DNA from: an uncultured Pelagibacteraceae bacterium
GTDB lineage: Bacteria > Pseudomonadota > Alphaproteobacteria > Pelagibacterales > Pelagibacteraceae
Assembly: GCA_902606665.1 (NCBI GenBank)
Contig: CACLHE010000003.1
Span: forward strand, 1 to 38,237
Direction of reading: 5' to 3'
Length of the DNA: 38,237 bases
This document shows positions 11,853 through 20,750 of this stretch, one piece after another (position 1 is the stretch's first letter; every line of letters begins with the position of its first letter). The translations under genes and the position numbers were made by a program. Under the pieces are notes generated by a model. The model was not told the DNA's origin. It ran no database searches and saw only the letters and a list, made by a program, of their open reading frames with translations.

Positions 11853-12209
11853 GCCAGACAATTGATTAGTCGCTTTTGTTGAATAAACAAGAGAGGAAAG
11901 TCCGGGCTCTATAAGAACACGGTGCCAGATAACTTCTGGCGAGGGAAACCTCAGGGATAGTGCCACAGAGAATAGACCGCCTTATCAAGGCAAGGGTGAA
12001 AAGGTGCGGTAAGAGCGCACCGGTTTTTTGGTAACAAAAAACGCATGGAAAACCCCACCGGGAGCAAGACCAAATAGAGATAGCAAGGCTTTATGCCGAA
12101 AACAGTTCTTAGTTAGCTATCTGGGTTGGTTGCTAGAGGTTAAATGTGAATTTAATCCCAGACAAATGACTGATTTAAATGACAGAACCCGGCTTACAGA
12201 TTGTCTGGC
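11853..12209 (+). ncRNA. rnpB: RNase P RNA (bacterial type A)
   Basis: Conserved GAGAGGAAAGTCCGGGCTC, GAGGGAAACCTCAGGGATAGTGCCACAGAGAATAGACCGCC, AAGGGTGAAAAGGTGCGGTAAGAGCGCACCGG and GACAGAACCCGGCTTACAGA. The P1 helix is perfect: GCCAGACAAT (11853-11862) pairs with ATTGTCTGGC (12200-12209). Confidence 0.97.
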
Positions 12210-12364
12210 TTATCGTTATAATTATCTACACACTAGAAAATAGAAAATAATCAATTGTTCACGTTTTGATTCCTTAAAGATTCAAGTCTGTACTAAAAAA
12301 TCAACCTACAGGTTCTTTGTTAAAATGGTCATTTTTTTAACTAAAAAGGTCAATAATTAGGGTA

Positions 12365-12393
12365 TTGACGTATAGGTTGAAAACCCATATTAT
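12365..12393 (+). promoter_or_regulatory. Sigma-70 promoter for the mraZ-ftsZ operon: TTGACG (12365-12370), 17-bp spacer, TATTAT (12388-12393)
   Basis: Near-consensus -35 and -10 hexamers at optimal 17-bp spacing, about 95 bp upstream of the mraZ ATG. Confidence 0.7.
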
Positions 12394-12408
12394 CCCATGT
12401 ATTCCCAA
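12384..12408 (-). promoter_or_regulatory. Candidate MraZ box: three TGGG direct repeats (minus strand) with 10-bp period
   Basis: Plus-strand CCCA at 12384-12387, 12394-12397 and 12404-12407; on minus, TGGGA-N5-TGGGA-N5-TGGGT. Matches the known MraZ operator architecture and overlaps the -10 element. Confidence 0.75.
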
Positions 12409-12489
12409 GGGAGGGGGATACGGTGCTTAAAAAGCTAAATCAAAAATTAATAGTTGATTTCTTTTGGGGCAACTTTGACTTAAAAAAAC

Positions 12490-12954
12490 ATGTTTCTATC
12501 AACCTACGAAAACAAAATAGACAAGAAATGGAGGGTTTCAGTGCCAGCCAGTTTTAGATCTTATTTGCACAGCATGGGTTACAATGGAGTAATTTGTTAT
12601 CCATCTTTTAATAATCCTGCCATTGAAGCTTGCTCACAAAACAGAATAGAAAAAATTTCTAATTCTATAGATTCACTAAATCCGTTTGAGGAAAAAAGAG
12701 ATATTTTTGCAACTTCCGTATTAGCTGAAAGTGTTAATCTTCAATTTGATAGTGAAGGAAGAATTTCCATTCCAGACAAATTATTAAATCATGCAAAAAT
12801 TAAAGAAACCATGCTTTTTGTTGGACAAGGTACAACTTTTCAAATTTGGGAACCTAAACTTTTTGAAAAATTCAAAGCACAAGCTAGAAAAAAAGCTAAT
12901 TTGAATAGAGCAAGTCTTAAATGGGAAAATCAATTTAAAAAGGAGGGCAAATGA
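12490..12954 (+). CDS. mraZ: Transcriptional regulator MraZ
   Basis: MFLSTYENKIDKKWRVSVPASFRSYL...FDSEGRISIPDKLLNHAKIKETMLFVGQGTTFQIWEPKLFEKF: twin AbrB-like MraZ repeats. Confidence 0.96.
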   Translation: MFLSTYENKIDKKWRVSVPASFRSYLHSMGYNGVICYPSFNNPAIEACSQNRIEKISNSIDSLNPFEEKRDIFATSVLAESVNLQFDSEGRISIPDKLLNHAKIKETMLFVGQGTTFQIWEPKLFEKFKAQARKKANLNRASLKWENQFKKEGK

Positions 12955-14453
12955 CAATAAGTATAAAAGGTCCAGAATTAAAAGAATTAAAACCAAGAAT
13001 TTTAGTTTTAGGAGTAGGTGGAGCTGGAGGAAATGCCATTAATGGCATGATAGACGCAGGAATGGAAGGCGTTGAGTTCGTTGCAGTAAATACTGATGCA
13101 CAAGATTTAATAAATAATAAAGCTACTGGAAAAATTCAGCTTGGGGCTAATTTAACAAAAGGGTTGGGTGCGGGCGCCAAACATGAAATTGGCCAAGCTG
13201 CAGCTGAGGAGTCGCTGAACGATATAGTTGATTATATTAAAGGTAGCAATATGGTTTTTGTCACTGCAGGAATGGGTGGAGGAACAGGAACAGGAGCATC
13301 ACACGTTATTGCAAGAGCTGCAAAAGAATTAAATATTCTTACTGTAGGAGTTGTAACTCTTCCTTTTTCTTTAGAAGGACCAAAAAAAATGAGAATAGCA
13401 CTTAAAGGATTAGAAGAATTAAAAAAACATTTAGATACTAATATCGTTGTTCCAAATCAAAACCTTTTTAAAATTGTTAATGAAAAAACAACTTTAAAAC
13501 ATTCATTCGGACTATCAAATGATGTTTTAAAATTTGGAGTTCAAAGTGTTACAGATTTAATGGTAAGACCAGGCTTAGTTAATTTAGATTTTGCTGATGT
13601 TGAAACCGTCATGAAAGGAATGGGAAAAGCGATGATGGGAACCGGAGAAGCAGAAGGAGAAAAAAGAGCAGAGGAAGCAACTAATGCAGCTTTACTGAAT
13701 CCACTAATTGATGAATATTCATTAAAAGGAGCAAAAGGCCTTTTAGTTAATATTACAGGAGGTTCAGATCTTACTTTGTTTGAAGTAGATGAGGCTGTAA
13801 ATAAAATTCGTGCAGAAGTAGATCCAGAAGCTGAGTTAATTTTTGGTTCAATCGAAGACGAAAGATTAAATGGAAAAATTAGAGTTTCGATTGTTGCCAC
13901 TGCATTAGATGGACAAGAACCAGAAACTAAACCTGTTGTTAGTATGGTACATAGATTGTACAACAGAAATAGCGGCTACAGCAATAACTTGGTGGGTAGC
14001 ATGACAACCAATCAAGCTACTTTAAATGCGACCGATGGGGCCACAGCTTTAAATTTAGATAATGTAGTTGAAGAAAGTGCAAATGCTAAAGGTGAAATAG
14101 TTCGCGACGACACAAAGGAAAATGAAAGCGATCCTTCTCTAGAAAATATTTCTATAGAAAATGCCACTTATCTTCAAAATATAAAAGATAGTCCAAATAC
14201 AGAAGATTTAAAAGAAGATGATAAAATGGAAACATTTGAGGTGGATAGCATTGAATTAGCTACTCCAGAACTTTTTTCTGAAGAAAAGGAAGATAGTTCT
14301 TTCAATCAAGATCAAAATACGGCTGATCCAACAATTTTTGATAATCCAAAATATGAAGAAGATACTCCAACAAAAGAGCAAGAAATGTTTGAAGAATCTA
14401 ATTTGGAGGAAGATTTTGAAATACCAGCTTTTTTACGAAGACAAAAAAACTAA
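12951..14453 (+). CDS. ftsZ: Cell division protein FtsZ
   Basis: GVGGAGGNAINGMI, VNTDAQ, LGAGAKHEIG, FVTAGMGGGTGTGASHVIA, RPGLVNLDFADVETVM and the conserved C-terminal peptide EDFEIPAFLRRQKN. ATGA overlap with the mraZ stop. Confidence 0.97.
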   Translation: MTISIKGPELKELKPRILVLGVGGAGGNAINGMIDAGMEGVEFVAVNTDAQDLINNKATGKIQLGANLTKGLGAGAKHEIGQAAAEESLNDIVDYIKGSNMVFVTAGMGGGTGTGASHVIARAAKELNILTVGVVTLPFSLEGPKKMRIALKGLEELKKHLDTNIVVPNQNLFKIVNEKTTLKHSFGLSNDVLKFGVQSVTDLMVRPGLVNLDFADVETVMKGMGKAMMGTGEAEGEKRAEEATNAALLNPLIDEYSLKGAKGLLVNITGGSDLTLFEVDEAVNKIRAEVDPEAELIFGSIEDERLNGKIRVSIVATALDGQEPETKPVVSMVHRLYNRNSGYSNNLVGSMTTNQATLNATDGATALNLDNVVEESANAKGEIVRDDTKENESDPSLENISIENATYLQNIKDSPNTEDLKEDDKMETFEVDSIELATPELFSEEKEDSSFNQDQNTADPTIFDNPKYEEDTPTKEQEMFEESNLEEDFEIPAFLRRQKN

Positions 14454-17900: not shown

Positions 17901-20750
17901 ATGCTTTTAGGTCAATTATTAAAATCAGTAAATAAAAAATATCAAACAATAGATGTTAGAGGTATTTCTTTTAACAGTTTAAGTGTTAAAAAAAAATATT
18001 TGTTTTTTGCAATTGAAGGAAACCAAACATCAGGAAATAAATTTGTTAATGAGGCTATAAAGAAAGGAGCTTCAGCAATTATAAGTACAAGAAAAATACA
18101 ATATAAAAACTACGGAATACCTATAATTTTAGTTAGAGATGTTAGAAAAAGTCTTGCAGAAGCATGTTCAAATTTTTACATAAAAAAACCTAATAATATA
18201 ATTGCAGTTACTGGCACAAACGGAAAATCATCTGTAGCACATTTTTTTTATCAAATACTTAATTTTAATAAAATTTCTGGAGCTTCAATTGGAACTTTAG
18301 GAATACTTTCAAAAAAATACAAAAAAAAGACGAATTTAACATCAATGGACCCTTTGCAATTAAATAAAAATCTTTCAATTTTATCAAAAAAAAAAATTAA
18401 AAATGTAATTTTAGAAGCATCAAGTCATGGCCTAGAACAAAAAAGACTAGATAATTTAAAGATAAAAACAGGAATTTTTACCAACCTCAGTCATGATCAT
18501 CTAGATTATCATAAAAATATGAAATCCTATTTTAATTCAAAAATGTATTTATTTAAAAATTTACTAAGCAAAAAATCCAAAATTATTACCGATGAAAATA
18601 ATAAAGAATTTAGATTTATAAAAAAAATTGCAAAAAAAAGAAAAATAAAAATGATTACGATAGGTTCAAAGACAGGAAATATTAAAATTCTAGGTGTTAA
18701 ATATAAAAAAAATAATCAGATAGTTAATTTTTCTATTAATTCAAAAAATTATACTATAGAAATACCTTTGATAGGTTATTTTCAGTTAAAAAATTTATTT
18801 ATGGCTGTTTTGGCAGCATCTCTATTTAGATTAAATATAAATAAAATTTTTAGTCAATTACATAAAATTAAACCAGTTCCTGGTAGATTAGAATGTGTGG
18901 GGAGTTTAAATAATAATTCCAATATCGTAGTAGATTTTGCACACACCCCGGAAGCTTTAGAACAAAGCTTAATTTCTTTAAAAAAGCAATTTAAAAATGA
19001 AATTATAATAGTGTTTGGATGTGGCGGTGAGAGAGATAAAAAAAAAAGATTAGTTATGGGTAGAATTGCTAGCAAATATTGTCGAAAAATTTTTATTACA
19101 GATGATAATCCAAGAAATGAAAATCCTAAAAAAATAAGGGATGAGGTCATGAAGGGTTGCAAGAAATCTGCAGTGAGCATAGGAAGTAGAAAAAAGGCAA
19201 TAAAAACAGCAATTAAAGAAATTAAATTTAACGAAACACTTTTGATAGCAGGAAAAGGTCATGAGGAAACCCAAAATTATGGAAAAAAAATTATAAATTT
19301 TTCAGATAAAAAATTAATAAAGAAGATTATTAACAAGAGAAAATATCATAAAAAAAAATATGATTATAAAGATTTTCTGCTTAAAAAGGCTTTTTTTAAT
19401 AATAATATAAATAAAGTTAATTATAATGGAGTTTCAATTAATACGAAAACTTTAAAAAAAAATAATTTATTTTTTGCTATCCGAGGAAAAAATATGGACG
19501 GACATAATTTTGCAAAAGAGGCAGCAAAAAAAGGTGCAGTAAGAATAGTCGCAAGTAGAAAAATAAAAAAACTTCCTAAAAATAAAGTTATTACAGTTAA
19601 AAATACTTTTTCTTCATTAAATAATTTAGCAAAAATTACTAGAGATTTTTCTACTGCCAAAATAATAGGAATAACGGGTAGTACAGGTAAAACTACTCTA
19701 AAAAATCTTGTAAGTTTTGCTCTAAAAAACTATGGAAAGGTTTACCACTCTCCACATTCTTATAACAATAGATTTGGAGTACCACTTAGCATTTCTAATT
19801 TGAGCAATAATATTGATTATGGAGTATTTGAAATTGGTATGGATAAAAAGGGTGAAATAAAAAATTTATCAAGAATTGTTAAGCCTGAAATCGCAGTTAT
19901 TACAAATATTTCAGGTGCTCATTTCAAAAATTTTAAGACATTAAAAGATATAGCAAGAGCTAAAGGTGAAATTATTGATAATATTACTAAAGGAGGTAAT
20001 TTAATTTTAAATAAAGATGATAAGTTCTTCACTTTTTTATCAAATATTGCAGAAAAAAACAAAATCAAAGTAACCACTTTCAGTTTAAAAAAGAAATCTG
20101 ATATTTATTTATCAAGTATTAAAAAAATGAGGAATCACAATAGATTAAAAATATATATAAATAATAAAATTTTTTATTTTAATATAAAACACTCAACTAA
20201 TAATTTTATACAAAATATACTAGCCTGCGTCTCTATAATGTCTGTTTTGAATTTAAATTTTAAAAGAATGAAAAATAATTTTTTTGATTTTAAAATTCCC
20301 GAAGGTAGAGGTGATATTATAACTGTAAAAAAATTTAATAAGAAATTTAAATTTATTGACGAAAGTTATAATGCAAATCTTTTATCTATGACATCAGCAA
20401 TTAATAATATGAATTATTATAAATTTATAAAAAATAATAGAAGAATAGTCTTTTTGGGCGATATGTTAGAACTTGGAAGCAAGTCTAAAAAAACTCACAA
20501 GGTTTTGTCAAAAGTAATTAATAAAAGCAAAATTGATAAAGTATTTGTTTACGGAAGGCATATAAAAGAAACTTTCAAACGTTTAAAACCAAACAAAAAA
20601 GGTAAAGTATTTGCAAATATAAAGGAAGCAAATGATCACTTTAGTAAAATATTAACCAATAACGACCTACTTATGGTAAAAGGATCCAATGCAACGGGTT
20701 TAAATCAGTTTTCAAAAAATATTAAAAAAGGTCAAATTAGTGCTATATAA
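17901..20750 (+). CDS. murE/murF: Bifunctional fused MurE (meso-DAP ligase) and MurF ligase
   Basis: Single 949-aa ORF with two Mur ligase cores: TGTNGKSSVAHFF plus DNPR motif (ITDDNPRNENP, meso-DAP specificity signature), then a second set from about residue 480 with GITGSTGKTTLKNL, PHSYNNRFGVPLS and ESYNANLLSM (MurF). Confidence 0.93.
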   Translation: MLLGQLLKSVNKKYQTIDVRGISFNSLSVKKKYLFFAIEGNQTSGNKFVNEAIKKGASAIISTRKIQYKNYGIPIILVRDVRKSLAEACSNFYIKKPNNIIAVTGTNGKSSVAHFFYQILNFNKISGASIGTLGILSKKYKKKTNLTSMDPLQLNKNLSILSKKKIKNVILEASSHGLEQKRLDNLKIKTGIFTNLSHDHLDYHKNMKSYFNSKMYLFKNLLSKKSKIITDENNKEFRFIKKIAKKRKIKMITIGSKTGNIKILGVKYKKNNQIVNFSINSKNYTIEIPLIGYFQLKNLFMAVLAASLFRLNINKIFSQLHKIKPVPGRLECVGSLNNNSNIVVDFAHTPEALEQSLISLKKQFKNEIIIVFGCGGERDKKKRLVMGRIASKYCRKIFITDDNPRNENPKKIRDEVMKGCKKSAVSIGSRKKAIKTAIKEIKFNETLLIAGKGHEETQNYGKKIINFSDKKLIKKIINKRKYHKKKYDYKDFLLKKAFFNNNINKVNYNGVSINTKTLKKNNLFFAIRGKNMDGHNFAKEAAKKGAVRIVASRKIKKLPKNKVITVKNTFSSLNNLAKITRDFSTAKIIGITGSTGKTTLKNLVSFALKNYGKVYHSPHSYNNRFGVPLSISNLSNNIDYGVFEIGMDKKGEIKNLSRIVKPEIAVITNISGAHFKNFKTLKDIARAKGEIIDNITKGGNLILNKDDKFFTFLSNIAEKNKIKVTTFSLKKKSDIYLSSIKKMRNHNRLKIYINNKIFYFNIKHSTNNFIQNILACVSIMSVLNLNFKRMKNNFFDFKIPEGRGDIITVKKFNKKFKFIDESYNANLLSMTSAINNMNYYKFIKNNRRIVFLGDMLELGSKSKKTHKVLSKVINKSKIDKVFVYGRHIKETFKRLKPNKKGKVFANIKEANDHFSKILTNNDLLMVKGSNATGLNQFSKNIKKGQISAI

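Follow-up and report, generated by a model that had tools for sequence, protein, structure and literature searches.

The start of the mraZ-ftsZ operon in Pelagibacteraceae appears to be controlled at two levels, and we put the probability of this two-layer explanation, which draws on sequence comparisons, at roughly 70%. The first layer is an MraZ operator lying across the promoter of the operon, and the second is a short leader open reading frame (ORF) that begins directly behind the operator, runs in the +1 frame into mraZ and would pass ribosomes to an internal GTG at codon 18 of mraZ, here called GTG18. The DNA analyzed, referred to as the window, is a stretch of 38,237 nt from an uncultured Pelagibacteraceae bacterium. 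An original prediction for this stretch had addressed the operator; the translational layer just downstream of it is absent from that prediction.

An array of MraZ boxes at the mraZ promoter

The promoter, the boxes and the genes of the locus are arranged in the window as follows.

11854-12212, plus strand: rnpB, the RNase P RNA, as the upstream neighbour (RF00010, E = 6e-101)
12365-12370, plus strand: -35 element TTGACG (window sequence and promoter scan), at an aligned position conserved in SAR11 relatives
12384-12387, minus strand: MraZ box 1, CCCA, read as TGGG on the minus strand (window sequence, shuffle test)
12388-12393, plus strand: -10 element TATTAT, occupying the gap between MraZ boxes 1 and 2 (window sequence and promoter scan)
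12394-12397, minus strand: MraZ box 2, CCCA, minus-strand TGGG (window sequence, shuffle test; 135 of 135 relatives)
12404-12407, minus strand: MraZ box 3, at or just past the predicted transcription start (window sequence, shuffle test; 135 of 135 relatives)
12490-12954, plus strand: mraZ, full-length frame of 154 aa from ATG1, without a Shine-Dalgarno site (PF02381)
12951-14453, plus strand: ftsZ (Tubulin and FtsZ_C domains), with its own strong Shine-Dalgarno site at 12940-12947 (energy -12.3)

Across the array, the minus strand reads TGGGA-N5-TGGGA-N5-TGGGT, and CCCA starts at 12384, 12394 and 12404, in the exact 10-bp period that had been predicted. The predicted promoter was likewise recovered: TTGACG and TATTAT are spaced by 17 bases and form the best promoter match of the region (10/12), while promoter-like matches in general were no commoner in the promoter scan than in shuffled sequences. 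The original prediction also had the array overlapping the promoter from the -10 element to the start site; the overlap holds, but the array begins before the -10 element, with box 1. The 6 bp separating boxes 1 and 2 are precisely the -10 element, and box 3 follows closely on the predicted start at about 12400. The pattern TGGGN6TGGGN6TGGG occurs once in the 38 kb, both strands included, and in none of 100 dinucleotide shuffles, which together with a genome-wide scan with a reversed-pattern control rules out a chance triplet. The three direct TGGG repeats, 10 bp apart, stand at a promoter match in front of a genuine mraZ gene (PF02381, E = 2.9e-22).

The gene order in the window is mraZ, ftsZ and then mraW, and the mraZ stop and ftsZ start overlap in an ATGA at 12951-12954. 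That ftsZ comes second in the operon, as stated in the original prediction, proved general, since ftsZ directly follows mraZ in 136 of the 136 SAR11 loci with enough sequence; the canonical dcw order, with mraW after mraZ and ftsZ near the far end, is therefore not that of SAR11. Most other alphaproteobacterial loci have mraW next after mraZ, and one locus from another AT-rich alphaproteobacterial lineage (L193) has ftsZ there, as in SAR11. Among eight SAR11 genomes, ftsZ was single-copy in all. Two further observations concern the gene content of the locus and of the relatives. A 949-codon ORF at 17901-20750 reads, from its translation, like a MurE-MurF fusion with two ligase ATP-binding motifs. 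One metagenome bin (G032) holds two different mraZ genes (L013 and L046), 88% and 78% identical to that of the window, and is probably mixed.

Conservation of the operator

The array is kept in 135 distinct Pelagibacteraceae mraZ upstream regions, with boxes 2 and 3 present in all 135; this pair served as the alignment anchor for the relatives, so that its presence in every sequence is itself the result. A column tally of 116 of these regions shows no variation in boxes 2 and 3, CCCA as box 1 in 91 and ACCA in 25, a T at the first base of the gap between boxes 1 and 2 in 100%, and TTGAC at the -35 position in most relatives, at times shifted by one base. The 19 regions outside the tally, mostly from the clade of the window, have the triplet about 106 bp before the ATG. 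Box 1 is hence imperfect in some SAR11 arrays, and the Pelagibacteraceae mraZ promoters examined carry at least two exact boxes and a third that is CCCA or ACCA. The relation of the array to the promoter is fixed, whereas anything from about 35 to 106 bases separates it from the mraZ ATG among relatives, which ties the array to the promoter and not to the gene. Loss of the triplet from close relatives, named in the original prediction as evidence against it, was not seen in these 135 regions, and the reading as the MraZ-box operator of the mraZ-ftsZ operon gains support from both this conservation and the adjacency of ftsZ.

Scanning 23 SAR11 genomes for the exact triplet returned it in 18, once per genome and just upstream of mraZ, and the reversed pattern gave no match in any of the 23. 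One genome of a second SAR11 family carries a five-box array, which counts as three overlapping pattern matches. The mraZ operator is the only full array in each genome scanned. Other Alphaproteobacteria have two to five boxes upstream of mraZ in most loci, on the same strand relative to the gene, and the orientation of the boxes is accordingly that of the class and not peculiar to SAR11. This recurrence of orientation and placement marks the array as an ordinary MraZ operator, that is, one of a known type to which binding of MraZ is predicted.

As a further candidate, we considered a hairpin in the 5' mRNA, in which the CCC of box 3 (window 12400-12420) would pair with a downstream GGG. Stems of at least five pairs form in 24% of the relatives against 2.7% of shuffled sequences, with some compensatory changes; the hairpin was rejected as enriched but not general, and RNA folds were not significant.

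A leader ORF overlapping the start of mraZ

Behind box 3, the window contains the following signals for translation.

12410-12417, plus strand: Shine-Dalgarno site 1, GGAGGGGG, directly after box 3 and serving the leader ORF (duplex energy with the anti-Shine-Dalgarno sequence -12.0 kcal/mol)
12423-12557, plus strand: leader ORF of 44 aa with a GTG start at 12423, in the +1 frame relative to mraZ, with a TAG stop at 12555-12557 inside mraZ
12530-12535, plus strand: Shine-Dalgarno site 2, GGAGGG, inside mraZ (-9.8 kcal/mol in the window)
12541-12954, plus strand: proposed internal ORF from GTG18, giving as a putative product MraZ without residues 1-17 (GTG18 in 135 of 135)

The leader thus has both a ribosome-binding site and a start codon. 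An upstream start codon in its frame is present at 134 of 135 Pelagibacteraceae mraZ loci, the one exception being L005, a genome with an A8 run, and leader lengths among the relatives range from 7 to 70 bases and are all 1 modulo 3. Counting ATGs only, we found one between the operator and ATG1 in the leader frame in 127 of the 135 genomes, in frame 0 in 23 and in frame +2 in 6. Its Shine-Dalgarno site averages -5.1 over the family, against -12.0 in the window. Immediately ahead of ATG1, the clade of the window strongly conserves TTGACTTAAAAAAAC (12475-12489), whose TAA and TGA close frames 0 and +2 while the leader frame stays open. The A7 run that precedes ATG1 is not shared between clades, and transcriptional slippage there was ruled out.

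The leader frame is kept open. Over mraZ codons 1-19 (to +59 or beyond), the +1 frame is open in 135 of 135 genomes, whereas synonymous codons drawn at random at the codon usage of the family would leave it open in 0.43%. This is the only 19-codon stretch of mraZ with an open +1 frame in all genomes; elsewhere, away from the first codons, the best stretch is open in 44 of 134. Codon choice follows the same line. Codon 6 ends in C in all 135 while its residue varies between Y, F and H, codon 8 is AAC in all 135, and codon 11 is GAC in 134, the lone GAT (L129) preceding a GTG, where no stop arises; background use of C-ending codons is about 22%. At codon 10, Ile is ATA and never ATT, and Leu is never CTT, although ATT and CTT are common elsewhere in mraZ and are exactly the codons that would yield TGA in the leader frame.

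On a tree of 133 mraZ genes, third bases changed 0, 0 and 1 times at codons 6, 8 and 11, compared with 7-39 times at the other two-fold (NNY) sites except codons 2 and 22 (2 and 4 changes); because of the kinship among the genomes, many of them single-cell or metagenome assemblies, the counts are not independent, and the tree corrects for this only partly. Codons 4, 5, 9, 10, 16 and 17 changed 19-49 times, and this free variation of neighbouring third bases argues against a general nucleotide constraint. From these sequence patterns, the +1 leader frame is under selection to stay open and to be translated, and dual-frame translation of the mraZ start is strongly supported.

In the second SAR11 family, as in the other AT-rich Alphaproteobacteria of the sample, a stop interrupts the leader frame within 8-29 bases, so that, as far as sampled, only Pelagibacteraceae have the device. 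Nine loci of the second SAR11 family (L161-L167 and L171-L172) have a TTG led by GAGG, 39-42 bases upstream and in frame with mraZ, which suggests an N-terminal extension of MraZ there instead of an out-of-frame leader. A search of mainly open-access literature found no paper describing the leader ORF, and a short frame that overlaps the mraZ start and ends at an internal start site is, as far as we found, previously unremarked.

Leader stop, GTG18 and its Shine-Dalgarno site

A stop of the leader is found at +59 or +65 in 135 of 135 genomes, the five without a +65 stop all having one at +59, and its first base lies 8 or 14 nt downstream of that of codon 18 in every genome. Codon 18 itself is GTG in 135 of 135, where 7% would be expected, and its third base did not change on the tree, compared with 46 changes at Val16 and 24 at Val111.

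In relatives, GGAAGG or GGAGGG precedes codon 18, and the mean duplex energy of this second site over the family is -8.97, compared with -6.21 for random synonymous sequences and -0.9 at other mraZ codons; ATG1 reaches -1.6 over the family and +0.7 in the window, all energies being computed with CACCUCCUUU and hence approximate at the outer bases, as the SAR11 16S rRNA ends in ...TGGATTACCTCCTT. Arg15 is mostly AGG (100 of 135) and Arg23 mostly AGA (118 of 135). At codon 14 (12529-12531), the genus of the window often has Trp, and sometimes Met, Arg or another residue, for the usually conserved Gly14, and the TGG AGG at codons 14-15 makes the internal Shine-Dalgarno site perfect in that genus. 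A stop codon thus lies close to a start codon with its own Shine-Dalgarno site, the layout of termination-reinitiation, and by their conservation GTG18 and its Shine-Dalgarno site are under selection.

The MraZ N-terminus and a putative short form

Residues 1-17 of MraZ are strongly conserved while third bases are free (entropy 0.22, 0.16 and 0.81 at codon positions 1, 2 and 3), and ATG1 is invariant among Pelagibacteraceae mraZ genes, from which we conclude that the cell makes and needs full-length MraZ. An AlphaFold2 model of MraZ (mean pLDDT 76) places two strands at residues 8-10 and 15-17, followed by a helix over residues 20-28; it matches solved MraZ structures but with an rmsd near 9 Å, and only its local secondary structure was used. 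In this model, GTG18 falls on a structural boundary. D11 and R15 are invariant in MraZ, and the hairpin that carries them is, by the general properties of the MraZ/AbrB fold, presumed to be DNA-binding. MraZ begun at codon 18 would, according to the model, be without this first beta-hairpin. Such a short product may also be unstable or unused.

Proposed mechanism and rival explanations

In the proposed mechanism, MraZ bound to the array over the -10 element and the start site would block RNA polymerase and thereby limit its own synthesis and that of FtsZ. Ribosomes would load at the strong Shine-Dalgarno site right after the operator, translate the leader ORF in the +1 frame across the first 19-21 mraZ codons and terminate at +59 or +65, beside the second strong Shine-Dalgarno site and GTG18. 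They would most likely reinitiate there in the mraZ frame, which would yield MraZ without residues 1-17 and let the ribosomes carry on towards ftsZ, while full-length MraZ would be made from an ATG without a Shine-Dalgarno site, probably less often. The arrangement could serve two purposes that do not exclude each other, namely supplying an MraZ subunit deficient in DNA binding, or letting ribosomes pass to ftsZ at low repressor output, and the sequence fits either.

Each of these purposes can be drawn out into a fuller account. One possibility, which we hold tentatively, is that two MraZ proteins come from one gene, a full-length repressor from the weak ATG and a leader-coupled short form from GTG18, which would lack the DNA-binding hairpin, join the MraZ ring and tune the repression of ftsZ. 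Held just as tentatively, the leader could be a decoy that diverts ribosomes from the weak mraZ ATG, with GTG18 recapturing them for ftsZ and for protection of the mRNA and with no functional short MraZ. The strong Shine-Dalgarno sites of the leader and of ftsZ, set against a very weak ATG1 in the window, and the position of ftsZ directly downstream in 136 of 136 loci fit a decoy, which would also explain why the frame is open, the stop fixed and GTG18 present with no need for a functional short protein, but it does not itself explain why the restart should lie exactly at the structural boundary, though that may be chance. Activation of this promoter by MraZ we consider unlikely. MraZ activates in Neisseria elongata, where deletion of mraZ lowers dcw expression (PMC9395523), but it represses in E. 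coli and M. genitalium (PMC8475190), and the array covers the -10 element and the start site, a position expected to block the polymerase. Repression is therefore the likely sign of MraZ control here, as judged from the position of the array.

Two other explanations of the overlapping frames were rejected. Programmed +1 frameshifting, which would fuse the leader peptide to MraZ, is very improbable: an offset of exactly +1 and the slippery TTT or CTT codons in front of some stops would suit it, yet a conserved slippery site at the shift point was not found, 40 of 135 genomes stop at +59 after non-slippery codons, a shift at the stop codon would put other residues in place of the conserved N-terminus, and frameshifting does not require the invariance of both ATG1 and GTG18. 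That the invariant C and G bases form a DNA or RNA motif instead of reflecting translation is scarcely credible. The fixed bases do fall inside a 40-base stretch, but the third bases of codons 4, 5, 9, 10, 16 and 17 nearby vary freely, and codon 6 keeps its C while the residue changes among Y, F and H. Rejection of such a motif was decided by the single GAT at codon 11, which occurs where no stop would arise, and by the avoidance at Leu10 and Ile10 of just those codons that give TGA.

Under the two-layer explanation, one array, one repressor and one operon would set the supply of FtsZ, with a family-wide translational device in front. Few regulators are present in SAR11, the most abundant cells of the ocean. 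Should the device operate as proposed, it offers a concrete, testable account of the ratio of repressor to FtsZ in a streamlined cell, and the annotated start of mraZ hides a second frame and a second start.

Comparison with known systems

The inhibitor of Tn5 transposase is an internal-start regulator, a shorter in-frame product without the N-terminal DNA-binding residues. Pelagibacteraceae MraZ would resemble it in product layout, its short form being putative and read from the gene. Leader-gene pairs that use termination-reinitiation (PMC4833913) share with the present case a short leader and a stop near a downstream start with its own Shine-Dalgarno site, whereas the Pelagibacteraceae leader extends over the annotated start of the gene, in a different frame, and terminates at a codon within that gene. 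The mraZ leader of R. sphaeroides with the sRNA UpsM (PMC5089854) is likewise an alphaproteobacterial mraZ leader with a small ORF; it differs in being long and having a terminator, and its small ORF, in another arrangement, is reported only in R. sphaeroides species.

The operator itself has close counterparts. The E. coli MraZ operator upstream of mraZ was described by Eraso et al. 2014, as relayed in PMC8475190 and PMC7761207, and the E. coli sequence likewise has three TGGG repeats with a 10-bp period at the mraZ promoter. In E. coli, however, the coding strand carries the TGGG repeats, which lie past the -10 element, whereas in SAR11 and other Alphaproteobacteria they are on the opposite strand and straddle it, and SAR11 differs further in having ftsZ second in the operon. 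The M. genitalium MraZ-promoter complex (PDB 9r4j, 9sz7) involves the same family and fold and a box array at the mraZ promoter, and a single genomic site is described there too (PMC8475190), while the box of Mollicutes is a different one, AAAGTG[T/G] (PMC8475190).
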